Shown piece after piece: positions 15,932-56,835 of a stretch of DNA of 64,000 bases (its first letter is position 1; each line of letters starts with the position of its first letter). The notes beneath the pieces are model-generated. The model was not told the DNA's origin and did no database searches. It worked only from the letters and a program-made list of their open reading frames with translations. The DNA comes from Flavobacteriales bacterium BRH_c54 (lineage in GTDB: Bacteria; Bacteroidota; Bacteroidia; Flavobacteriales_E; Vicingaceae). A program made the translations under genes and the position numbers. The stretch lies in NCBI GenBank assembly GCA_000961845.1, contig LADZ01000001.1, positions 1-64,000 of the forward strand, read 5' to 3'.

Positions 15932-16273
15932 ATGCGAAGAATAAAAAGCTTTATACACGCATTTAATGGGATAAAGATGGCTTTTAAAGAAGAGCCTAAC
16001 TTTAGAATTCATGTTGTAGCAACAATAATGGTTATTGCTGCCGGATTGTATTTTAAACTATCAACAACAGAATGGTTGGCAATAGTAATTGTAATCGGAT
16101 TGGTTTTGCTTACAGAACTACTAAATACCGTTATTGAAAATATAGCTGATTTTATTTCACCGGAAAGACACGAAAAAATTAAAACGATAAAAGATATTGC
16201 AGCCGCAGCCGTTTTAATAAGTGCTATAGTTGCTTTGATTGTGGGGTTGTTGATTTTTATTCCTAAAATTTAA
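15932..16273 (+). CDS. dgkA: Diacylglycerol/undecaprenol kinase family protein
   Basis: A 113-residue integral membrane kinase with an N-terminal amphipathic helix (SFIHAFNGIKMAFKEEPNFRIH) and three membrane segments. The catalytic signature ELLNTVIENIAD (about residues 69-80) supplies the metal-binding Glu. Outside Proteobacteria this family often phosphorylates undecaprenol; the substrate cannot be decided here. The start lies 2 bp after the recO stop and the next gene starts 3 bp after its own stop, so it is part of a tight operon. Confidence 0.93.
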   Translation: MRRIKSFIHAFNGIKMAFKEEPNFRIHVVATIMVIAAGLYFKLSTTEWLAIVIVIGLVLLTELLNTVIENIADFISPERHEKIKTIKDIAAAAVLISAIVALIVGLLIFIPKI

Positions 16274-16276
16274 ATT

Positions 16277-16903
16277 ATGAAGATTTACGGCATAAGTGGT
16301 CTTGGTGCAGATGAAAGAGTGTTTAAATATCTTAATTTAAAACATGAAATTATTCCTTTAGCATGGATTAAACATGACAAAAACGAATCACTAGAACATT
16401 ACGCAAGTAGATTGGCTGCAAAAATTGATACAAGTAAAGAATTTGGTGTTTTAGGTGTTAGTTTTGGTGGCTTAGTAGCTGTTGAGATTAGTAAAACTTT
16501 AAATCCAAAAGTTACCATTTTAATATCATCTGTAGAAACAAAAAATGAACTTGGTTTCTTAATTAAAGGACTTGGTAAAATGAATTTGGTTAAATATTTA
16601 CCCTCAAAAATATTTAATCCTCCTAAAAAAATAGCTCATTTTTTATTCGGAACAGATAACAAAGAATTATTAAATAAAATTTTAGACGATACTGATTTGG
16701 ATTTTACCAAATGGGCTGTGAATGAATTATTAAATTGGAAAAATACCACACACCTTTCTTCAATAATTAAAATTTCTGGTACTAACGATAAATTGTTGCC
16801 ACCAACTAAATCTAATAACTCTATTCTTATTGAAAAAGGCGAACACTTTATGATAGTTGATAAAGCTAAAGAGATTAGTGAAGTTATTAATGAACGAATT
16901 TAA
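16277..16903 (+). CDS. Small alpha/beta hydrolase
   Basis: A 208-residue alpha/beta hydrolase with a compact lid. GLGADERVF near the N-terminus precedes the nucleophile elbow GVSFGG (60-65, Ser62). The acid is in SGTNDKLLP and the histidine in KGEHFMIVDKA. There is no signal peptide. It is the last gene of the porZ-recO-dgkA run by spacing. The substrate is unknown. Confidence 0.82.
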   Translation: MKIYGISGLGADERVFKYLNLKHEIIPLAWIKHDKNESLEHYASRLAAKIDTSKEFGVLGVSFGGLVAVEISKTLNPKVTILISSVETKNELGFLIKGLGKMNLVKYLPSKIFNPPKKIAHFLFGTDNKELLNKILDDTDLDFTKWAVNELLNWKNTTHLSSIIKISGTNDKLLPPTKSNNSILIEKGEHFMIVDKAKEISEVINERI

Positions 16904-16951
16904 ATTTTTCTAAGGATGATCAATCTAGTTTTTATTGTGGTTTAAAAAAGG

Positions 16952-17938
16952 TCAATTTTGTTTCTTTAGATATACTATTTCTTTATTAAATCCTGAGTTT
17001 TTACTAATTCTTATAGTTAAAATATCTTCTGACAATTCTAGAACCTTCCAAGAACCACTGTCTGTAAATATTTTGTCAATAAAATAGATCCTTTTGCCAT
17101 CACTACTTAATGACCATTTCATTTTTTTTTCACGTCCCATATGTTTCACTAATAGAGAATCTTTGTCAAAAATTAATTTGTAATATATATCTTCCTCATT
17201 TATATCCATAAGAGGAGGTATAGGTTTTGGAACAGAAATTTTAATTTCATTCCAATTTCCAATAAGATTATTTTGTTGAGATATTTTCTCCGTTTGAGTA
17301 AAAGTAAATTCAACATTTTCTTGAATAGGACATTCAAATACCATTTTTTTACCAGTACTTGATTTTAAAACTAACAATGGGAAAAATTGATTTTGAATAT
17401 TCATAAAATTAAATCCTCCATAATTTATTATCTTCCATTTGTTAACTGGGAAATTTATATTATATTCTCCTGTAAATATTAATAATGAATCGTTAATAAA
17501 ATCAACACTGTCGTTGTAGTTTTTACTTGAAATAATATATGAACCGATGAATTCCTTTTTTTTAAATTGTTGGTCTTTCCAGTGGGAATTTAATCGTCTT
17601 AAAATAGATTTTTCCTTACTATCTTTATGTTTAATAACTATTGAATCTGCTTTGTAAATAATGTTCATTGTATGATTTCCAATTTGAAGTACTGAATTAT
17701 TTAGAGTATATATAGATGTATCAATAATTATTAAATTTAAATCCCCAGTAGACAAGTCTCCAAATCGAATTGTATAAACGGTATCATTTTTAAATTCTAA
17801 TAAGGTTTTCTGACTTAGCGGCATGATTTCATTATTATCAGTCAATGTATATGCTGAAAACCAAATCCCGTCTATCTTTTGTGGATGGTTACAAGATGCT
17901 AAAATTGAAATGATAAATATGTAAAATAGTTTTTTCAT
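16952..17938 (-). CDS. Lipoprotein of unknown function, 328 aa
   Basis: The signal peptide ends in the lipobox LASC (Cys16). Two related halves look lipocalin-like, each with a W-x-x-x-x beta-barrel style start (KIDGIWFSAYTL, and LIGNWNEIKISVP near residue 225) and strands with D-S-I-x-I motifs (TVYTIRFGD, KADSIVIKHKD). It is probably periplasmic or outer-membrane-anchored. It follows the SDR gene by 29 bp in the same direction. It cannot be assigned to a named family with confidence. Confidence 0.7.
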   Translation of the reverse strand: MKKLFYIFIISILASCNHPQKIDGIWFSAYTLTDNNEIMPLSQKTLLEFKNDTVYTIRFGDLSTGDLNLIIIDTSIYTLNNSVLQIGNHTMNIIYKADSIVIKHKDSKEKSILRRLNSHWKDQQFKKKEFIGSYIISSKNYNDSVDFINDSLLIFTGEYNINFPVNKWKIINYGGFNFMNIQNQFFPLLVLKSSTGKKMVFECPIQENVEFTFTQTEKISQQNNLIGNWNEIKISVPKPIPPLMDINEEDIYYKLIFDKDSLLVKHMGREKKMKWSLSSDGKRIYFIDKIFTDSGSWKVLELSEDILTIRISKNSGFNKEIVYLKKQN

Positions 17939-17967
17939 TTTTTGAAATAAAATTTACTTTTAATTGT

Positions 17968-18672
17968 TTATGGCGTATCCACCGAAACAGGAATAACTTT
18001 TCCATTGATGAGAACAGGTTGTTGAGTAGCAAAGTCAAAAATAAATTTAGCCATTTCTTCCGCAGTAGTTTGTGCTTTAAAACCAGGGAAAGCATTGTTA
18101 AGCATTTCTGTCTGCACCGAGCCTAATGCCAAGCAGTTTACAAATACATTTTTACCTTTAAATTCTTCTGCCAAGCATTCGGTTAGATTGGCTAAAGCAG
18201 CTTTTGAGGCACTATAAGTAGCCAATCCCGGGAATTTTATAGAACCTTGAAAGCCACCCATGCTGCCAATGTTAACTACATGACATTTTTTTGTTGCATC
18301 AAGATGAGCAAATACACTTTGTAAAAGCAACATCGGAGCAAAAACATTTACCTGAAAAGTCTGCTGAATAGTTTTTAAATCTGTTTTTTCAAAAGGAGCA
18401 TGAGCTAAAAATCCTGCATTATTGATAACAATATCAATGTGTTGATGTTCTTTTAAAATAGCATTCAATGGTATTTTAAAATCAGGTTGACTTAAATCTA
18501 CTTTATAAACATGAATGGATTTTTGATATGTTTTAGCACAAAAATTTTGCAAGTTTTTCAGTAATTCGATGTCTCTTGCTAAAGCAATAATAGTGGTATC
18601 GGTATGGGCTGCGAAGTGTTTTACTAAAGCTGCTCCAATACCTTTGCTTGCTCCTGTAATTAGTACATTCAT
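17968..18672 (-). CDS. Short-chain dehydrogenase/reductase (SDR)
   Basis: A 234-residue classical SDR. The cofactor motif TGASKGIG lies at 6-13, NNAG at about 90, the catalytic Ser is in NIGSMGG, and Tyr/Lys are in YSASKAAL. The Rossmann start is complete. The substrate is unknown. It overlaps the upstream NlpC/P60 gene by 4 bp (ATGA), which indicates translational coupling, and precedes the lipoprotein gene. Confidence 0.92.
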   Translation of the reverse strand: MNVLITGASKGIGAALVKHFAAHTDTTIIALARDIELLKNLQNFCAKTYQKSIHVYKVDLSQPDFKIPLNAILKEHQHIDIVINNAGFLAHAPFEKTDLKTIQQTFQVNVFAPMLLLQSVFAHLDATKKCHVVNIGSMGGFQGSIKFPGLATYSASKAALANLTECLAEEFKGKNVFVNCLALGSVQTEMLNNAFPGFKAQTTAEEMAKFIFDFATQQPVLINGKVIPVSVDTP

Positions 18673-25492: not shown

Positions 25493-25734
25493 TAATTTAG
25501 GTACATGTATTTTTTAAAGCAGTAAATTTTAAAAAGATTTAACGTTTAGGTTGTTTATCCTTGATTAAATACATTGAAGGTAACTCTTAATAATTTAAGT
25601 ATGTTCAATTTGGTCACCCTTTCTTAATTAGTTATTTTTGTTGATGATTGATATAATTGAATTTGATTTCTCTACTTTTTTCTCAATTATATTCTTGATG
25701 TCTTGTTGAATTTTAATCCAAAAACAAATTACTG

Positions 25735-27177
25735 ATGCACATTGTAGATTTAACTGTTTTTATAGTTTATATGCTTGGTTTATTAGGCATGGGCTTTTAT
25801 TTTTTGCGTAAAAACAAAACCACGGAAGACTTTTTTGTAAGCGGACGTAACATGAGTAGCTGGCATATTGGTCTATCAGTTGTCGCAACAGATGTTGGTG
25901 GTGGGTTTTCTATTGGATTGGGAGGTTTGGGCTTTATGATGGGCTTATCTGGTTCTTGGATGTTGTTTACAGGATTAATTGGAGCTTGGGTGAGTGCAGT
26001 ATTTCTAATTCCAAAAGTATATCAATTGGGAAAAGATAGTAAATTGACTACTTTTCCTCAATTATTTGGACATTATTATAATGGTAAAGTGGCATTGATG
26101 GCAGGAATTATTTCTGCTATTGGTTATTTAGGTTTTACTGGTTCACAAATTCTAGCAGGTGCTAAATTGGCTTCTTCTTCATTTGTCGGGTTGGATATTC
26201 AAACAGCCTTATTGGTGATGGGAATCGTAACAATTCTTTATACTGTGATGGGTGGAATGACTGCAGTTATATATACAGATACTGTTCAATGGATTGTTTT
26301 GATATTAGGATTGTCACTAGTAGGTATTCCACTTTCCTATCATGCTGTTGGTGGATGGGATGAAATCAGCAAAACCGTTCACCCTGATTTTATGTCGCTT
26401 ACTAACGTTTCATGGCAAATGTTAGTCAAATGGGCAGTAACCATTATTCCAATTTGGTTTGTGGGCATGACGTTATATCAAAGGATTTATGCCAGCAAGA
26501 GTGAGAAAGGAGCAAAAAAAGCTTGGTTTATTGCAGGACTTTTTGAATGGCCTGTTATGGCTTTTATGGGAGTTTTGTTGGGATTATTTGCTAGGGTTGC
26601 TGCTGATCAGGGAATGTTTGCAGAATTGGGGTATGCTAGTTCAGAAGGAATGGATGCAGAGTTAGGCTTGCCGCTGTTGTTGAGAGAAATATTACCTATT
26701 GGTTTGATGGGAGTTATGCTTTCAGTCTATTTTTCAGCTATTCTTTCTACAGCTGATAGTTGCTTGATGGCTTCTTCAGGAAATTTATTGACAGATATTT
26801 TACAGAAATTTTTTCCTAAACTTGAAAATCATTCACAAGTACTGAGAATAACACAGTTACTTACTTTGTTTATGGGAATATTTGCTATTCTTCTAGCTTC
26901 AACTATGGAAAATGTGTTAGATTTGATGTTATACGCTTATGGTTTTATGGTTTCAGGCTTGTTAGTTCCCTTAGTGGTGGGTATGTTTTTTAAGATAAAC
27001 AACAGTACTGCAGCACTGTGTTCTATGATTGCCGGAGGTACAACAACTGTGGTGTTGGCCTATAATAAAACAGCTCTACCTTTCGATTTAGATGCAAATA
27101 TTTTTGGAATTACAGCTTCTTTGTTTGTTTTTATTCTCGTTTCAATGTTAACTAAAAACATTAGAACAACTACTTAG
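25735..27177 (+). CDS. Sodium:solute symporter (SSS family)
   Basis: A 480-residue integral membrane transporter with about 13 hydrophobic segments. Family signatures are TTEDFFVSGRNMSSWHIGLS, the GYLGFTGSQILAGAKL region, and the conserved TM segment LSVYFSAILSTADSCLMASS that carries the Na+ site serines. The substrate is uncertain (sugar, proline, pantothenate-like). It is monocistronic by spacing, with no terminator recognised before aconitase. Confidence 0.93.
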   Translation: MHIVDLTVFIVYMLGLLGMGFYFLRKNKTTEDFFVSGRNMSSWHIGLSVVATDVGGGFSIGLGGLGFMMGLSGSWMLFTGLIGAWVSAVFLIPKVYQLGKDSKLTTFPQLFGHYYNGKVALMAGIISAIGYLGFTGSQILAGAKLASSSFVGLDIQTALLVMGIVTILYTVMGGMTAVIYTDTVQWIVLILGLSLVGIPLSYHAVGGWDEISKTVHPDFMSLTNVSWQMLVKWAVTIIPIWFVGMTLYQRIYASKSEKGAKKAWFIAGLFEWPVMAFMGVLLGLFARVAADQGMFAELGYASSEGMDAELGLPLLLREILPIGLMGVMLSVYFSAILSTADSCLMASSGNLLTDILQKFFPKLENHSQVLRITQLLTLFMGIFAILLASTMENVLDLMLYAYGFMVSGLLVPLVVGMFFKINNSTAALCSMIAGGTTTVVLAYNKTALPFDLDANIFGITASLFVFILVSMLTKNIRTTT

Positions 27178-27297
27178 TTTTTTTCAGTTTCTAGCTTTTT
27201 ATTTGAGTTTTTAAGGAACTTCAAGGTTATAAAGTTTAAACAAAATTGGCTCTAATTAAATATTTATCAGAAAGTGTTAAACTTTCTAAAAGATATT

Positions 27298-39853: not shown

Positions 39854-39935
39854 TTTTTTTTAGATGCATCAAGAAAAAATATTGTTAAGTTGTGTGTAAA
39901 AATGTTAAGGTGCCATATTATCAGTTTAAAGAAGA

Positions 39936-40463
39936 ATGAAGTTTATTTTAACTTATAGTTTGTTATTTGTCTTATTCAGTTTAAGTCTGAGCTTTTGTTA
40001 TGGACAAGATAATGTGCTAGATTTAAAGAAGATTAACAGTAACAAGAAACTAACAGTTGAAAAACCTATTTACTTAAAATTAAAAATAGATAGTACAGAA
40101 TCACATTATATACTTTTTGAAACATTTAACGAAAGTTTAGTTTTGAGTTCGCCTAAAAAAGTTGATTTAGATACATATAAAATAGTATCGTTTGATACTG
40201 TTTCTTTCACTTCAATAGAAAAGATGTGGATTAATTCAAAGGATATTTCTCAAAAGTGTTATCGTAACATGTATTTTCTATCTATAGGTACATTTGTTGG
40301 CTCTACACTTTATGCTATGTTTAACATTTCTGAAAATAGTTCTAACCAAAAAAGGATATTACATGCAATACCTATTGTCGCATCAGTTTATTTTACATTT
40401 CATTTTAGAGATAGAAAAATAAATACTAAAAAATGGCAATTAAATTCAACAGTTTCCCCTTAA
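39936..40463 (+). CDS. Hypothetical exported/membrane protein, 175 aa
   Basis: Not recognised. It has a signal peptide (MKFILTYSLLFVLFSLSLSFCYGQ), a polar beta-rich region (about 25-110, NKKLTVEKPIYLKLKIDS), and a C-terminal membrane segment pair (about 113-160: NMYFLSIGTFVGSTLYAMF and RILHAIPIVASVYFTFHF). The start shows no special signal. It is the first of three small plus-strand genes before asnB. Confidence 0.6.
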   Translation: MKFILTYSLLFVLFSLSLSFCYGQDNVLDLKKINSNKKLTVEKPIYLKLKIDSTESHYILFETFNESLVLSSPKKVDLDTYKIVSFDTVSFTSIEKMWINSKDISQKCYRNMYFLSIGTFVGSTLYAMFNISENSSNQKRILHAIPIVASVYFTFHFRDRKINTKKWQLNSTVSP

Positions 40464-40484
40464 GGGTCTTTATTCAAAATTGAT

Positions 40485-40862
40485 ATGTTTAACTTCATAA
40501 AGAGAAAAACTTTATACATCAGATTATATACAAATATTGTGTTTATAAGAGATGTTGAAAGCAAAAAAGAACTAAAAAGAGAGGCTACTAAACTTTTTTC
40601 AAATAACAGGCTTTTATTTGCTGATTTTATAAATGGTGAAGAGTGCTTAATAACAACTATAAAAGAATTGTTTGAAGGAAAATCAACTTCAACATTTAAT
40701 ATATTAATTCAACCAATGGAGAAAATTGAGGGAGGTTTGTCTTCGGTTGAAAATAGAGCTTTAATGGATGTTGCTGAACATATAGGAGGAAGAAACATTG
40801 TTATTTATAATAAAACCAATCTATTAAGTGACAATATGGTGTTAGAAATGGTTAAAAAGTGA
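40485..40862 (+). CDS. Hypothetical soluble protein, 125 aa
   Basis: Not recognised. It is basic at the N-terminus (MFNFIKRKTLYIRLYTNIVF), with RDVESKKELKREATKLF and alternating helices and strands that recall YjeF- or rod-shape-type small proteins, but no firm family match. The last part (LMDVAEHIGGRNIVIYNKTN) is glycine-containing and conserved in style. It follows the 175-aa gene by 21 bp. Confidence 0.55.
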   Translation: MFNFIKRKTLYIRLYTNIVFIRDVESKKELKREATKLFSNNRLLFADFINGEECLITTIKELFEGKSTSTFNILIQPMEKIEGGLSSVENRALMDVAEHIGGRNIVIYNKTNLLSDNMVLEMVKK

Positions 40863-40884
40863 AATAGAATTAATTTTTTTTATA

Positions 40885-41511
40885 ATGAGATTATTTAAAA
40901 TAATAATTACAATGTTTATACTTACTACTATTATTAATTGTAATAGTATTAAAAATAAAGACATTAAGATTTATAATGTTACAAGTAATTCAATTTCATT
41001 AAAAGCATATAATTGGAATGATTCAACATATCATGAGCTTAAAATTATACCAACAGGAAAAATAGTTACTTATCAGGACACTTCTTTTATTGGATTAAAC
41101 ATTATTTATGAAAAGGACACTATTTTAAAAGGTAATTTTTATTGGGATAATGGTCAAATTTTTACTTTTTGGTGTTTTTATAAAAATGATATTCCAGAAG
41201 ATATTCCTGCTGACATTTTTGATGATTTAAATAGTTATGAATTCAATTGTGGAATAGACAAGGTTTTTGATATGGATACTTCTTATTTTTTCTATGATGA
41301 TAAGAACCATTTCTCTCCAAATATGGCTATATCTTTAGGGGATATAATCCCTAGTAATCTTTATAAAGGAAGATTTTTAAATTATAAAATACAAAATTTT
41401 CCTTTTACAGAAGAGTATATTGAAATTAATATGAATAAAAATTATAGAATTGAATCGATAACATTTAGATTTAAGAATGGTATTCTTAAATACCCATGGG
41501 AGGAACTTTGA
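40885..41511 (+). CDS. Hypothetical lipoprotein, 208 aa
   Basis: Not recognised. The signal ends in a lipobox-like IINC (Cys19). The mature part is beta-rich with many aromatic residues (FYWDNGQIFTFWCFYKND) and an acidic mid-section. It follows the 125-aa gene by 22 bp and converges on asnB with a 3-bp gap. Confidence 0.6.
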   Translation: MRLFKIIITMFILTTIINCNSIKNKDIKIYNVTSNSISLKAYNWNDSTYHELKIIPTGKIVTYQDTSFIGLNIIYEKDTILKGNFYWDNGQIFTFWCFYKNDIPEDIPADIFDDLNSYEFNCGIDKVFDMDTSYFFYDDKNHFSPNMAISLGDIIPSNLYKGRFLNYKIQNFPFTEEYIEINMNKNYRIESITFRFKNGILKYPWEEL

Positions 41512-43377: not shown

Positions 43378-43471
43378 TTCTGTTGAATATTTTTTTATGT
43401 AACAAATGTTACCAAATTTTAGAAACTAGAGGGCTTACATTTGAATAATTATTCAACTAAACTACAATTAC

Positions 43472-45076
43472 ATGAAACATTTAAAGCTTACTACTTTCTT
43501 TTGGCTGTTTTTTTCGTTGGTATTAACAGCTCAAAATAATTTTAATTATTCAGTTCATTTAGATTCTGTAACCATTTCTAATTTACCGGGAGTACACTCT
43601 TTTGCTTATGCTCAGCATGATGGTAAATGGCTGATAATAGGAGGTAGGCTTGATGGTATTCATGCTCGTCAGCCTTTTAATGCATTTCCGGAAAATCAAA
43701 ATAATCAAAACATATTAGTGATAGATCCTGTTAGTCAACAGTATTGGTCATCAAGTGTTGGGGTGTTGCCAACTAACTTAAAAGAGCAATTGCAATCAAC
43801 TAACATGAATTTTTATCAGGACAATGATACCTTGTATATTATTGGAGGATATGCTTTTTCACCAACTGCCAACGATCATATTACTTTTCCGTATTTAGCA
43901 TCGGTGCAGGTTTCAGACTTAATGAACGCAGTAATTAACAATGCATCCATTACTCCATATTTTAAACAAATTAGCGACACAGCTTTTGCAGTTACAGGTG
44001 GACAAATGGGAAAAATTGGCAACGAAATTTATCTTATTGGCGGACATCGATTTGATGGAAGATACAACCCAATGAACAATCCTACTTTTGTGCAAAAATA
44101 TACCAACCAGATAAGAAAATTTGTTTTTAATAATTCGGGTACGCAGCTAAGTTTTTCTAATTATTCAACCATTACAGACCCCATACATCTAAGAAGAAGA
44201 GATTATAATTTATTGCCTCAAATTTATCCTGATGGCAGTCATGGCTATACTATTTCATCAGGCGTTTTTCAGATAAACGTAGATTTGCCGTTTCTTTATC
44301 CTGTTGATATTACTGCTGTGGGACATAACCCTATTACTTCATTTAATCAATATTTAAGTAATTATCAAGGAGCAAAAGTTGCTTTGCACGATAGTATTAA
44401 TAACGAAATGCACAATTTATTTTTTGGAGGAATGAGTCAGTATTATTACCAAAACAATACACTTGTTCAGGACAATCAAGTACCATTTGTAAAAACCATT
44501 AGCAGAATGAGTAGAGATTCCTCAGGTAATTTACTTGAGGTTCAGTTGCCAATAGAAATGCCGGGTTATAGAGGGGCAGGTTCAGAGTTTTTTGTTAATA
44601 AAGACTTACCTCATCACGAATCAGAAGTGATAAAGTTAGACGCTATTCAAGCAGATACCATTTTGTTGGGCTATATTTTTGGAGGAATTTTAAGTCCTAC
44701 CATTAACCCTTTTGCAAATAATGTAACCAATACGACTTCTGCCGATAATAAAATTTATAAAGTGTACTTAATTAAAGATATTCCTCAAAGTGTGTATGAA
44801 ATTAATGGTAAAAACCCTTATCAAGTAAATCTATACCCTAATCCTGTAGATGATATGCTGAATGTTTCTTTTGAAATGGAAAATCCGTCACCAGTAGATT
44901 ATTTTGTAACAGATGCTAAAGGAGCTATCGTTCAAGAAGGTGTAATAAAAGCTGTAAGTTCAGGAGAAACACATCATAAAATTAAACTCAATAAAATAAG
45001 CGGAGCTCAAACACTATTTGTTACTTTTATATTTGATGATAAGTTTTATGTAAGCAAGAAAGTAGTTAAAAATTAA
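43472..45076 (+). CDS. Kelch-like secreted protein with T9SS sorting domain
   Basis: A 534-residue exported protein with a signal peptide (1-20). Kelch-type blade motifs (GKWLIIGGRLDG, DTLYIIGGYAFSP, EIYLIGGHRFDGRY, NLFFGGMSQYY) form a beta-propeller. A type A sorting domain (about 450-534, QVNLYPNPVDDMLNVSF) ends in a basic KKVVKN. It should be secreted by T9SS and attached or released. Its activity is unknown; no catalytic motif was seen. A -7 box TACATTTG lies at 43436-43443. Confidence 0.85.
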   Translation: MKHLKLTTFFWLFFSLVLTAQNNFNYSVHLDSVTISNLPGVHSFAYAQHDGKWLIIGGRLDGIHARQPFNAFPENQNNQNILVIDPVSQQYWSSSVGVLPTNLKEQLQSTNMNFYQDNDTLYIIGGYAFSPTANDHITFPYLASVQVSDLMNAVINNASITPYFKQISDTAFAVTGGQMGKIGNEIYLIGGHRFDGRYNPMNNPTFVQKYTNQIRKFVFNNSGTQLSFSNYSTITDPIHLRRRDYNLLPQIYPDGSHGYTISSGVFQINVDLPFLYPVDITAVGHNPITSFNQYLSNYQGAKVALHDSINNEMHNLFFGGMSQYYYQNNTLVQDNQVPFVKTISRMSRDSSGNLLEVQLPIEMPGYRGAGSEFFVNKDLPHHESEVIKLDAIQADTILLGYIFGGILSPTINPFANNVTNTTSADNKIYKVYLIKDIPQSVYEINGKNPYQVNLYPNPVDDMLNVSFEMENPSPVDYFVTDAKGAIVQEGVIKAVSSGETHHKIKLNKISGAQTLFVTFIFDDKFYVSKKVVKN

Positions 45077-45198
45077 CTTTACTTTTGGAAGGTAAATCTC
45101 TATTGATAACTAACAGTTAGGTTTTAAAAGAGTTGTAAGTTGTTTCAAGCTAGTGCGTAGCTTAATTTTACATGGATTTTAAACTTTTTAATAAATAA

Positions 45199-51137: not shown

Positions 51138-51977
51138 ATGGATAAAGAAATTTATAAAGTGCTTGTTCCTCATGATTTTACACCTGTTGCAGATTGTGCA
51201 ATCAGTCATGCTGCTCAGGTAGCTAAATCTTATAATGGTGATGTTTACCTTTTGCATGTTGTGTCAAAACAAAAAGAAGTTGAACCAACTCGTGAAAAAT
51301 TAAAAGAAATTGCTTTAAAAGCGGAAAACAAGTATGGTGTTAATATGCATGTAGTTGTAAGAATAGGAAGTATATTTGAAGATATTGGAGATGTTGCATC
51401 AGAAATTTCTGCCGGATATATTGTGATGGGAACGCATGGGGCAAGGGGAATGCAAAAAATATTAGGTAGCCACGCTATAAAAGTAATATCTCATTCTAAA
51501 GTACCTTTTATTGTAGTTCAAGAAAAAGAACCATCAGCAACAGATACTTATGACGATATAGTTGTGCCTATCGATCATGCAGATGTAACCAAACAAAAAT
51601 TAAAAATTGCAGCAAGTATTGCTAAGCATTTCAAAAGCAGAATTCACATTTTTGCTGATTCTGAATCTGATGAATTTTTAAAGAAAAAACTAAACCAAGA
51701 ATTAAGCTTTGCTAAAAAATATTTCGATGAGAAAAATTTACCTTACGAAATAGACAGGGCGGTAGAAGGTAGCGGAAACTTTAAAAAACAATTAGTAAGA
51801 TATGCTGCTAAAATGGACGCAGACTTAATTGTTATTGTAAATACACAAGAAGGAGCTTTATTACCTGATTTCTTTGGTAGCGATGAACAAGAAGTAATTG
51901 CTAACGATGCTGAAATTCCGGTATTAATCACTAATCCAACACATGAATTTGTTGCAAGTAGTGTTTTTGGAACATAA
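51138..51977 (+). CDS. Universal stress protein, tandem UspA domains
   Basis: A 279-residue protein with two UspA folds. Domain one (about 4-140) has KVLVPHDFTPVADCAISHAA and the ATP-loop-like VMGTHGARGMQKILGSHA. Domain two (about 147-275) begins DDIVVPIDHADVTKQKLKIA and its loop is degraded (VIVNTQEGALLPDFFGSDEQ), so only the first half is likely to bind nucleotide. A terminator follows 80 bp later. Confidence 0.92.
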   Translation: MDKEIYKVLVPHDFTPVADCAISHAAQVAKSYNGDVYLLHVVSKQKEVEPTREKLKEIALKAENKYGVNMHVVVRIGSIFEDIGDVASEISAGYIVMGTHGARGMQKILGSHAIKVISHSKVPFIVVQEKEPSATDTYDDIVVPIDHADVTKQKLKIAASIAKHFKSRIHIFADSESDEFLKKKLNQELSFAKKYFDEKNLPYEIDRAVEGSGNFKKQLVRYAAKMDADLIVIVNTQEGALLPDFFGSDEQEVIANDAEIPVLITNPTHEFVASSVFGT

Positions 51978-52055
51978 AAAAATGCATAATATTAATATGA
52001 AAAAGTCCCAATTGGATTGTTAATTACATAGGGATATGAAAAAACTTTAAAGATA

Positions 52056-52088
52056 AAAACCATCAGCAATTCTGTTGATGGTTTTTTT
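52056..52088 (+). terminator. Intrinsic terminator after uspA
   Basis: CCATCAGCA (52060-52068) pairs with TGTTGATGG (52073-52081), with one bulge, followed by T7. It isolates the downstream TIR/SIR2 cassette from uspA transcription. Confidence 0.85.
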
Positions 52089-52234
52089 GTAGCTTACTCT
52101 CAGAGTGAAATGTAAGATGAATATCATAAAACTTTTATGTAGAATTTTTTCAAAATATGAATATTTATTTAAATGATTATTCTTTCAAATAGTTTTAATA
52201 TTTTTATTTTTTTATATAAAATACCTTATTTGTT

Positions 52235-52242
52235 TATATTTG
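52235..52242 (+). promoter_or_regulatory. -7 element of the TIR/SIR2 cassette
   Basis: TATATTTG matches TAnnTTTG exactly and ends 18 nt before the ATG at 52261. The 17-23 nt upstream window is a T/A run without a TTTG. Confidence 0.5.
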
Positions 52243-52260
52243 GAAGATTAAAGAAAAAAG

Positions 52261-53016
52261 ATGAATGATATATTAATCAATAAATTATCCGAGATATTCA
52301 CGGAGCTTGAAAAGCTAAAGGAAGGTGAAGGTTATACTTTTAATAGGATAGTTAATAGAATTAAATCAATAAGTCTAAAACATTTTTCTCAATCTTCTTA
52401 CGCTAGTGATATAGAAAAAATTTTAAGAAAAGTAAATGATAGTTTTTCAGGTTTGAAAGATAGGCATATAATTGAATTAATGGGTGTTGTCCAAATAATG
52501 ATTGATGATTTAGAATTATCACCAAATACTTCATCTGCTAAAATAAATGCAAAACCTATAGAGAGCAAATTAGATAAATCTAAAGTATTTATTGTGCATG
52601 GACATGATGATGCATTAAAAAATGAAATAGCAAGGTTTATTGACCAATTAGGGCTTAAACCTATTATACTTCACGAACAACCTAGTTCCAGTAAAACAAT
52701 CATTGAAAAAATTGAGGATTATTCTAACGTTGGATATGGAATTGTATTATATACACCATGTGATGAAGGTGCTAAAAAAGGAGAAGAATTAAAAGGTAGA
52801 GCTAGACAAAATGTAGTGTTTGAACATGGTTTTCTTATTGGGAAAATAAGAAGAGAAAATGTATGTGCAATCATTAAAGACAATGTAGAAAAACCTAATG
52901 ATATTTCAGGTATCGTCTATATTCATTATTCTGGCAACTGGAAAATGGATTTAATTCAAGAGCTTAAAAAATCAGGGTATGAGGTGAATGCCGAACAACT
53001 ATTTAAAGAAATATAG
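52261..53016 (+). CDS. TIR-like domain protein (CAP12/Pycsar-type nucleotide-binding TIR)
   Basis: A 251-residue protein. Residues 1-95 form a helical domain (ILINKLSEIFTELEKLKEGE, SDIEKILRKVNDSFSGLKD). Residues about 108-245 form a TIR-like domain of the PF10137 kind: KVFIVHGHDD (109-117), PIILHEQPSSSKTIIEKIED, GIVLYTPCDEG, RARQNVVFEHGFLIGKI. Glu188 in NVVFEHG is the likely NADase glutamate. Members of this family act as NAD-depleting effectors in CBASS/Pycsar defence. The SIR2 gene starts 1 nt after its stop, so they form an operon. The region is very AT-rich and flanked by core genes, which suggests an acquired cassette. Defence function is inferred. Confidence 0.85.
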   Translation: MNDILINKLSEIFTELEKLKEGEGYTFNRIVNRIKSISLKHFSQSSYASDIEKILRKVNDSFSGLKDRHIIELMGVVQIMIDDLELSPNTSSAKINAKPIESKLDKSKVFIVHGHDDALKNEIARFIDQLGLKPIILHEQPSSSKTIIEKIEDYSNVGYGIVLYTPCDEGAKKGEELKGRARQNVVFEHGFLIGKIRRENVCAIIKDNVEKPNDISGIVYIHYSGNWKMDLIQELKKSGYEVNAEQLFKEI

Positions 53017-53017
53017 A

Positions 53018-53293
53018 ATGTACAAAGACAACTTATTCAATTTAATTCGAAAAGAGGAAGTAATAATTGTAGCTGGTGCTGGGTTGTCAATATATGCAGG
53101 TTTTCCTTCAGGAAAAGAGTTAGCAGAAATAATTTATAATGGTTTAAGTGAAGCTGAAAAAAAAGAGGTGAATGAAAACTTGCTTTTACCCGATTTAGCA
53201 GAAGAGTTTTACCGCATAAAAGGAAATAATAAAAATGCTCTCATTACACTATTAAAAAAACACTTTGTTGAGTTTACCACCAATATCAACTGA
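53018..53293 (+). CDS. SIR2-family protein, N-terminal part of a frameshifted gene
   Basis: From the ATG at 53018, 91 residues open a SIR2_2-type domain: VIIVAGAGLSIYAGFPSGKE carries the NAD-binding GAGxS (20-24), then a helical segment LLPDLAEEFYRIKG and LLKKHFVEF. The frame stops at 53291-53293 (TGA) in mid-domain. The continuing SIR2 sequence (STDYHKKLVSIPHF) is in the +1 frame, so this is one gene with the next entry. It lies 1 nt behind the TIR-like gene. Confidence 0.75.
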   Translation: MYKDNLFNLIRKEEVIIVAGAGLSIYAGFPSGKELAEIIYNGLSEAEKKEVNENLLLPDLAEEFYRIKGNNKNALITLLKKHFVEFTTNIN

Positions 53294-54905
53294 TTATCAT
53301 AAGAAATTAGTTTCTATTCCCCATTTTCATGGCATTATTACTACTAACTATGATAATTTATTTGAAGATAATTGTGGTAATGGATGTCAAGTTATTGTTA
53401 CGCCAGAGGATGTTCCCTATATAGATAATAAAAAGAAGCAGATTTTTAAAGTTCACGGAGACTTATCAAAACCAGAAAGTATAATAATATCTTCATCAGA
53501 CTATAATACATTCTTTAAATATGATAGTCAGAACAATGTTTATTGGAGTGTTATCAAAGAAAGAATTGCAACAAAAAATGTTTTATTTCTGGGATACAAT
53601 ATAGAAGACTCTAATATTAGAGTAATCTATGAAAAAATAACTGATTCATTAAAACATCACAAAAAAGAATGTTTCCTTGTTGCTCCAAATTTAAATCAAG
53701 CTAAAATTAATGATTTAAATAGGCAGGATATACACTATATTGATTCTAAAGCTGAAGAAATAATTGATGAGTTAATTGATAATATTAAGGCAAATATTGT
53801 AGCCGATTTACATTTAAATAAAGTTTCTGCTGATACATTTAAAAGATTTTGTAATAACTATCAAATAGCTCCAGATTTAAAAGATGGAGAATCAAATTTT
53901 ATAGTATCTGGATTTAAAGGTTTAAAAAATGAACCCTTGGATGGGAAAATAAACTTTAAAATAAAAAAAGAATCTGAAGCAATTAAAAGTTTAAAAGAAC
54001 TTATTGAGGGGAATTATTTTGGGGAAATTGATATTTCTAAAGAGGAACTTGAAAAAATGAATCTGACTTATAACGGAATTACTGCAGTTTCAACTGAAGA
54101 TGCTGATAGGTTGAAAATAAAAAGCACTCCGAGAGTAGATAGTAAAATAGATTTAAGATTTGAAAATGGAGAAGAATTTACAGATATACCTGTCGTTATT
54201 TTTACCTCAAAAGTAAAAATAGAGATTCGGGCTCAACTGATAAATTCTGTTTTATCAATTACAATTCATCTTCCTATAACTGAAAATTTGGAACCAAAGG
54301 TTCATTATTCTCATAACGAAATATGTGAAAGGGTTCAAGACGAAATTGCTTTGTTTACTATTCTTGAAAATTTCACTAAAGGTAGTAAGTTTACTGCTTA
54401 TGGAAAGGATGGTTTTCAAACAACAAATACTTTTGGAACTATACCAGACTTACATCAACATTCGGTTAATATGTTAAATTATTTAGGTAAATTAAAAGAA
54501 ATTGAAAATAATTATAATATTCGATTCACCAATTTTCCTTTTACTTCAATTAGTGAGTCTATTGATTCCATTGATATAGTACACTCAGTAATTAATAATA
54601 AACCTCTTTCTGGCACAATGAATAGTGATAAACTATTAGAAGTTGATATTGATAAATCTGCAGAAAATATTATACAAGTATTGGAAGAAATAGATACAGG
54701 TAAATTTCCTTTAACAAGTCATTTTGAAGAAGTGGAATATATTGAATTAATAGGACATAAATTAAATTTAGGATATAAGATTGTTGAATATTTAGACTTA
54801 GAAGTCACTAATTGGGATTCTATTAAATCAAAAAGGGAGAATGTAGCATTTGTGAAAAGTAAGACTAAGCAAGTAAAGATATTTTATAGCTCCGAGAAGA
54901 ATTAG
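53265..54905 (+). CDS. SIR2-family protein, C-terminal part of a frameshifted gene
   Basis: The +1 frame opens after a TAA at 53253 and runs to 54905. It supplies the rest of the SIR2 domain: GIITTNYDNLFED (NAD-site Asn/Asp), FKVHGDLSKPESIIIS (catalytic His), NVLFLGYNIEDSNIRV. After about residue 180 follows a region of some 360 residues matching no family I know, mixed alpha/beta (EIRAQLINSVLSITIHLPI, HNEICERVQDEIALFTILEN). No SLOG/macro-type Gly motif is visible. It is probably one protein of about 628 residues with the upstream part, if the shift is an error or is suppressed. The TTG start given is only the open-frame limit. Confidence 0.75.
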   Translation: MLSLPPISTDYHKKLVSIPHFHGIITTNYDNLFEDNCGNGCQVIVTPEDVPYIDNKKKQIFKVHGDLSKPESIIISSSDYNTFFKYDSQNNVYWSVIKERIATKNVLFLGYNIEDSNIRVIYEKITDSLKHHKKECFLVAPNLNQAKINDLNRQDIHYIDSKAEEIIDELIDNIKANIVADLHLNKVSADTFKRFCNNYQIAPDLKDGESNFIVSGFKGLKNEPLDGKINFKIKKESEAIKSLKELIEGNYFGEIDISKEELEKMNLTYNGITAVSTEDADRLKIKSTPRVDSKIDLRFENGEEFTDIPVVIFTSKVKIEIRAQLINSVLSITIHLPITENLEPKVHYSHNEICERVQDEIALFTILENFTKGSKFTAYGKDGFQTTNTFGTIPDLHQHSVNMLNYLGKLKEIENNYNIRFTNFPFTSISESIDSIDIVHSVINNKPLSGTMNSDKLLEVDIDKSAENIIQVLEEIDTGKFPLTSHFEEVEYIELIGHKLNLGYKIVEYLDLEVTNWDSIKSKRENVAFVKSKTKQVKIFYSSEKN

Positions 54906-55068
54906 TTTCGGGAATAATTAAGGTTAATTGCTCTGTGGTTAATTGAAAAAATTGGAAGAAGAAATACTTTATGATTATTAACATTAAAAATAAAAGGAAT
55001 TAATAATCTTATTATTTTTTATCTTTTAAAGATTCTGCGTAATTGACAATTAAATTGGGACTTTTTTG

Positions 55069-56835
55069 TTAATACCCAACCTCTAAATCTAATCTATCTT
55101 TTAATAGTTTTAAGACAGGATTTTTCTCCGACATTTTTTCAAACTTTTCTTCGGGAGTAAATGCTTTTTTATTGGCTTTGTCTTTATTAATGGTCAATTC
55201 AAAATCAATATTATAATTGTTTAGTGTAGCTCTAAAAAAGTCTAAGATGTCAGGTTTTTGAGCAGTAAATTCATCTACTATGGCTTTATTTTCTACAATA
55301 ACTTTTATTAGTGTGCCTTCAATTTCAGGAGTGTTTTCAAAAGCCGAAGCAAACATAATTTGACCATCAGTTAAAAGTTTATCCTTATAGATTTTCCATT
55401 GAGCTAAGAATGCTTCTTCTGTAAAAGCTACGGTAGGTTTTTCTGAAGTATCTTCTTTTTTGCCGGAGTTTTCTTTGTCGGCAAGTTGTTCTTTTATAGA
55501 AATGGTTCCGGACAACTGAAAACTCCCTAATTGCTTACTATAAGTCGCTTTTTTTTCTTCAACCGGTGGTGTTTCCGGTTTGGTAAGAGTAATTATTGGT
55601 TCATTAACAATTGTTGGCGTTGGTTGGGGTTGTTCTTTTTTAGGTTGAACAACAACGCCCTCATGCTTTTCAACAGCTTTTGCTAACTCTTTGTTGTTAG
55701 AAAAAGGGAGGTTAATTATGGGCTTTTTTTTTTCGTCTTGCGAGTAGTTTCTACTGCATAGTTGCATTAACATTACTTCTACCAAAAGCCGTTTGTTTTT
55801 ACTGCTCTTATAAGTAGTGTCTGTTTGGGAAGTAATGGATAAAAACGAAATTAAATCGTTAAGATTTATTTTTTTAGATTGATCTAAGTACTTTTCTTTA
55901 ATAGAAGGACCAACTTCTAATAAATTAACCGTTGCATTATCTTGGCAAACCAATAGGTTTCTTAAATGTTCAGATAATCCGTTAATGAAGTTATGACCAT
56001 CAAAACCATTGTTTAATATTTCATTAAAAATTAACAGCGCATTAGAAATATTATTAGTAATAATAGCATCGGTAATTTTAAAGTAATAATCGTAATCTAA
56101 AATATTAAGGTTATCAATTACATCCTGATACGTTATTTTATTTCCTGAAAAACTAACAATCTGGTCGAACATAGAAAGAGCGTCTCTTAAAGCTCCATCT
56201 GCTTTTTGAGCGATAATATGTAAACCTTCTTTTTCAGCTTCAATAGTTTCTTTTTCAGCAATGTGTGCCAAGTGATTGGCGATATCTTCAATTTGAATTC
56301 TATTGAAATCAAAAACCTGACAACGAGATAATATCGTTGGGATAATTTTGTGTTTTTCGGTAGTAGCTAATATAAAAATAGCATGTTTAGGAGGCTCTTC
56401 TAATGTTTTTAAGAAAGCATTAAAGGCAGCTTGGGATAACATGTGTACCTCGTCAATAATATACACCTTATGTGTGCCAAGCTGAGGAGCAAACCTCACC
56501 TGATCTATCAAAGCTCTAATATCATCAACAGAGTTATTTGAAGCTGCATCGAGTTCATATACATTTAAAGAATGTCCTTCATTAAAAGATTTACATGATT
56601 CACACTCATCACAGGCCTCAATATTTTGAGTAATATTAAAACAGTTAATGGTTTTTGCTAAGATTCTTGCACAAGTAGTTTTTCCGACTCCTCGTGGTCC
56701 GCAAAAAAGAAATGCTTGTGCTAAATGTGCTGTTTTTATGGCATTTTTTAAAGTAGAAGTGATGGAGTGTTGCCCAACTACAGTATCAAAAGTTACCGGT
56801 CTGTATTTCCTGGCTGAAACAATGTAATTTTCCAT
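55069..56835 (-). CDS. dnaX: DNA polymerase III subunits gamma/tau
   Basis: A 588-residue clamp-loader ATPase. Walker A is GPRGVGKT (46-53), the zinc module uses Cys64, Cys75, Cys78 and Cys81 (CDECESCKSF), Walker B is YIIDEVHML, the arginine finger is in LATTEKHKIIPTILSRCQVF. A Lys/Pro-rich linker (about 390-440) precedes the C-terminal tau-like domain. A -7 box TATATTTG (56870-56863, minus) lies 28 nt upstream. It is convergent with the SIR2 gene. Confidence 0.97.
   Translation of the reverse strand: MENYIVSARKYRPVTFDTVVGQHSITSTLKNAIKTAHLAQAFLFCGPRGVGKTTCARILAKTINCFNITQNIEACDECESCKSFNEGHSLNVYELDAASNNSVDDIRALIDQVRFAPQLGTHKVYIIDEVHMLSQAAFNAFLKTLEEPPKHAIFILATTEKHKIIPTILSRCQVFDFNRIQIEDIANHLAHIAEKETIEAEKEGLHIIAQKADGALRDALSMFDQIVSFSGNKITYQDVIDNLNILDYDYYFKITDAIITNNISNALLIFNEILNNGFDGHNFINGLSEHLRNLLVCQDNATVNLLEVGPSIKEKYLDQSKKINLNDLISFLSITSQTDTTYKSSKNKRLLVEVMLMQLCSRNYSQDEKKKPIINLPFSNNKELAKAVEKHEGVVVQPKKEQPQPTPTIVNEPIITLTKPETPPVEEKKATYSKQLGSFQLSGTISIKEQLADKENSGKKEDTSEKPTVAFTEEAFLAQWKIYKDKLLTDGQIMFASAFENTPEIEGTLIKVIVENKAIVDEFTAQKPDILDFFRATLNNYNIDFELTINKDKANKKAFTPEEKFEKMSEKNPVLKLLKDRLDLEVGY

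Follow-up and report, generated by a model that had tools for sequence, protein, structure and literature searches.

A SIR2 gene divided between two reading frames

The locus between uspA (51138–51977) and dnaX (55069–56835, minus strand) in the 64,000-nucleotide stretch of DNA analyzed here (the window) raises the question of whether a suspected defence gene is broken in the organism, broken only in the assembly, or kept in a switchable state. Two plus-strand genes (52261–54905) are found between these flanking genes. The first (52261–53016) is intact and encodes a TIR-domain protein of 251 aa that matches the CAP12/Pycsar TIR family of Pfam (PF10137, E 9.7e-40, profile positions 1–118 of 119) as well as the PADLOC candidate PDC-S35 (E 8.8e-82). 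The second is a SIR2 gene that begins with the ATG at 53018, 1 nt past the TIR stop codon. This is the homologous start (MYKDNLF vs. MYKENLF in the intact homologue L022, a protein of 634 aa from a Bacteroidales MAG), while the start listed for its reading frame, 52988, falls within the upstream gene.

The coding sequence of the SIR2 gene is divided between two open reading frames of the plus strand. ORF A (53018–53293) contains the GAGxS motif and runs for 91 codons until a TGA (53291–53293). ORF B (53256–54905), preceded by an in-frame TAA (53253–53255), carries the remaining SIR2 catalytic motifs (TTNYD, KVHGD, and GYNxED), followed by a C-terminal part of approximately 360 residues with no assigned family (53817–54902, plus strand); it matches the SIR2_2 profile (PF13289, E 1.7e-25), stays open for about 549 codons with no further disruption, and has only TTG codons (53265 and 53268) as near starts. 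When L022 was compared with the window using tblastn, its residues 1–83 matched frame A (63% identity, E 7e-30) and its residues 89–626 matched frame B (41%, E 2e-153), the two alignment pieces being only five residues apart. The same pattern was obtained with L024 (626 aa) and with L025 from Rufibacter (620 aa), and codon-usage scores favour frame A up to about 53250–53290 and frame B beyond. Because both homology and codon-usage scores switch frames, the two-frame pattern is far beyond chance, and the homologues confirm an earlier note on this DNA, which had placed GAGxS and TTNYD/HGD in different frames of one SIR2 domain.

Spread over the two frames, the GAGxS loop and the TTNYD and KVHG motifs, together with the SIR2 fold, are features of SIR2_2 (PF13289) defence NADases, and the gene is suspected to encode a phage-defence enzyme that destroys NAD. 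In a structural model of a homologue (mean pLDDT 84.5), the SIR2 domain is nearest in fold to ThsA, DSR2, and KomC (Z 23–24.5), and the break falls between two helices of this fold (residues 72–83 and 91–97). The C-terminal part of about 360 residues was modelled separately (mean pLDDT 88.6). It had no Pfam match above the cut-off, no Foldseek match at E ≤ 0.001 in the PDB or among viral models, and no clear match in PDB sequences; no SLOG or APAZ domain was among the matches listed, and the best fold match in a second look reached only Z 4.1 (VIA). Such a result does not prove a new fold, as parts of multi-domain models can be missed, but the C-terminal part could be an undescribed sensor domain that may sense infection.

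Position and authenticity of the frame change

The stop codons of the two frames (TAA 53253–53255 in frame B, TGA 53291–53293 in frame A) bound the frame change to 53253–53293. The zone itself (53254–53290, plus strand) corresponds to a net change of +1 or −2 relative to the homologues, and holds both a run of seven adenines (A7, 53254–53260) and an ACCACC repeat (53276–53281). In order to place the shift, joined peptides were scored against six homologues and the scores were summed. The sums were almost flat from 53255 to 53281, with the best positions at 53267–53279, and a junction at A7 scored about 9 units under the best value of 1852; homology thus slightly favours positions past the A run, while a one-base surplus was mildly preferred over a two-base deficit. 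The earlier note had put the shift near 53275–53285, at ACCACC, which lies in the zone and is a possible site, although such flat scores do not support it as the unique one. Likewise, its proposal that removing one base restores the domain agrees with the mild preference of the six homologues, whereas ACCACC as the site of that base is not established. The A7 run, which it had named as the other candidate, holds its place within the zone, and homology to the six proteins does not separate the two.

The assembly, 2.92 Mb in 69 contigs, has draft status, and a consensus or assembly indel that conceals an intact SIR2 gene was therefore weighed. The break would be a single indel with clean flanks on both sides and a fully open frame B, and a homopolymer lies in the zone, all of which speak for an error. 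Against this, when approximately 410 kb of the genome were compared with 1.18 Mb of the congener G008 (UspA 99% identical, approximately 90–96% identical DNA where the window is shared), all 123 orthologous ORFs (48,594 codons) were free of frameshifts. Three flagged cases were single stop codons with no frame change, one of them in an upstream start extension of dnaX. The 95% upper bound on the frameshift rate is about 2e-5 per base, which for a gene of such length predicts fewer than 0.04 frameshifts. Moreover, about 68 homopolymers of at least seven bases are located inside window ORFs of at least 150 aa (the runs in window ORFs include 33 A7 and 20 T7), and none of the window genes with G008 orthologues is frameshifted. 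These frameshift-free genes indirectly support a break that is real in the DNA, and we consider an assembly error unlikely, though the next most likely reading after inactivation.

Probable loss of function and its alternatives

The homologues provide the reference for an unbroken gene. At 11 related loci (L022 and L024–L033, including Hymenobacter copies) the protein is encoded in one frame with no split at this point, and the lone stop in the L031 alignment is that ORF's own end; the natural split of homologues that the earlier note had named as a refutation was not seen at these loci. Two further copies are broken. In Carboxylicivirga (L023, 1804–3684) the gene has two in-frame nonsense codons, one of them a TGA in place of the WAGAG tryptophan, and is otherwise 78% identical to L022, and the copy on a Bacteroides fragilis plasmid is a fragment between IS elements; this sample of broken copies is small and unsystematic and gives no rate. 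No relative was present in a scan of viral contigs, phage records gave only weak SIR2-domain matches, and no account of frameshifted SIR2 defence genes was found in the literature searched. Several copies are situated directly downstream of restriction genes (a type I specificity subunit in L024, a type III enzyme in L032, and a type I enzyme in L033), and a possible partner, a 557-aa protein of unknown family (L025:4025–5698), is encoded directly upstream of the intact Rufibacter gene.

Probably, the TIR and SIR2 genes arrived between uspA and dnaX as a cassette by horizontal transfer, and the SIR2 gene was later inactivated by a natural frameshift of recent date. The gene would once have encoded a single protein of about 630 aa, in which a SIR2 NADase resembling those of ThsA, DSR2, and KomC stood at the N-terminus, ahead of an uncharacterised C-terminal domain, until a small indel (a net gain of one base, or a loss of two) arose within the SIR2 fold and cut its first part off from the remainder. 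Initiated at the regular start, translation would now end after 91 codons, giving a product that keeps the nucleotide-binding loop and lacks the catalytic Asn and His, while a product initiated at TTG 53265 or 53268 would keep both catalytic residues and lack the GAGxS loop. As each fragment is predicted to lack a needed part, neither should be an NADase. In the Vibrio Nezha system, an alanine change of either SIR2 catalytic residue abolishes immunity (PMC11559045), and by analogy a disrupted SIR2 domain should do likewise.

This reading is consistent with several observations: homologues are intact while the frame here is disrupted, as expected of a pseudogene, other copies of the family are also broken, and the cassette is an accessory one (see below). 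Rapid loss and pseudogenes are known for defence genes (PMC8791490, PMC10121019). The open frame B speaks against it, in that the change must then be very recent, or be an error, or leave a protein still made by slippage; if the indel is real, the lack of further disruption in frame B points to a recent one. Of the three explanations that the earlier note had offered (error, inactivation, and phase variation), real inactivation has the strongest support, the frameshift-free comparison with G008 speaks against error, and phase variation is left as a minor possibility. The cost of autoimmunity, also mentioned there, is a plausible reason for the loss, and the cost or the redundancy of a defence gene might explain why the change was tolerated or selected. 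Most likely, in our view, a costly defence gene was recently lost in an ordinary way. One more defence effector would thus apparently have been lost by a small indel after its acquisition, in line with a view of cell-suicide NADases as costly genes with a rapid turnover. A more useful lead than the frameshift are the intact homologues, which define a family of SIR2 proteins with an uncharacterised C-terminal domain.

Reversible switching, through slipped-strand changes or RNA polymerase slippage at A7, would allow full-length NADase to be made in a small fraction of cells or from a small fraction of transcripts. Slippage is more frequent at longer homopolymers and has been documented for AT-rich bacteria (PMC5574713), and A7 lies within the allowed zone, where a change would join the frames at a nearly equal homology score. 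But A7, the only repeat in the zone relevant to a phase-variable gene, is short and of ordinary frequency among the runs counted above, a second state was not observed, none of the homologues is split at this point or has been shown to switch there, and homology slightly prefers positions after the run. Switching is accordingly judged quite improbable, and somewhat more so in its bet-hedging form, in which A7 would mostly silence a lethal NADase, by a genetic or a transcriptional route, and leave the full-length protein to rare cells or transcripts. The pieces might also act as separate proteins, with ORF B starting at one of the near TTG codons, yet the break is located inside the SIR2 fold (at homologue residues of about 83–89) and the homologues examined are fused, which gives such a natural split very little probability. 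Programmed ribosomal frameshifting is hardly credible and was set aside, since despite an overlap of about 37 nt between ORF A and ORF B the 11 related loci encode the protein in one frame, a −1 slip on A7 immediately meets the TGA at 53269–53271, and no RF2-like +1 site is present, the stop context (AAC-TGA) apparently offering no re-pairing.

The cassette and its relation to known systems

Comparison with G008 suggests that the TIR and SIR2 genes were inserted as a cassette (approximate limits 52014–55052) into the loop of the uspA/dnaX terminator hairpin. The uspA terminator hairpin is contiguous in G008, where it is followed by an unrelated ORF of 211 aa between uspA and dnaX, while in the window its arms are parted by the 3-kb cassette. 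A search of the 45 other genomes covered in the order gave no SIR2 homologue of this kind, and to judge from this and from the different content of G008 between uspA and dnaX, the cassette is accessory. Its ends form an imperfect inverted repeat of about 60 bp (52000–52059 and 55016–55066). A transposon origin is unsupported, as neither this genome nor four congeners yielded another copy of the terminal repeat, and no recombinase was identified within the cassette. Four other segments of 1.6–1.8 kb in the window (16271–17972, 25553–27267, 39858–41507, and 43378–45188) are absent or replaced in G008, and are not copies of one another.

A conserved TIR and SIR2 pair was sought at other SIR2 or TIR loci and not found: TIR relatives at other sites are not accompanied by this SIR2, no homologue of the TIR gene is encoded at the other SIR2 loci, and the neighbours of the other SIR2 copies are different genes, among them restriction genes of types I and III. 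Because relatives elsewhere are unpaired, the two genes may have joined only here. A Thoeris-like partnership is possible from their adjacency, while conservation gives it no support.

Among known systems, the intact upstream gene is by profile a clear member of the PDC-S35/CAP12-type TIR candidates, although elsewhere in the class the PDC-S35 TIR stands without this SIR2. SPARSA SIR2-APAZ proteins are of similar length and have an alignable SIR2 fold (Z 20.8), but the alignment covers only residues 1–291, and no short Argonaute was seen next to the copies that were inspected. The SIR2 fold also matches the effectors DSR2 (Z 24) and KomC (Z 23), which differ from the protein described here in length and in the C-terminal part. 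As for Thoeris, the ThsA match spans only the SIR2 domain, neither SLOG nor any solved fold clearly matches the C-terminal part, the TIR protein belongs to PF10137/PDC-S35 with no ThsB among the matches listed, and neither the pairing nor a conserved ThsB-type neighbour recurred at the other loci of either gene. On the other hand, a TIR gene adjoins the SIR2 gene as in the pair of ThsA (SIR2-SLOG) and ThsB (TIR), the L022 SIR2 protein is closest by profile to the ThsA1/ThsA models of PADLOC (E 9e-38), and the SIR2 fold of the homologue model superimposes on that of BcThsA over 248 residues (Z 24.5, rmsd 2.4).
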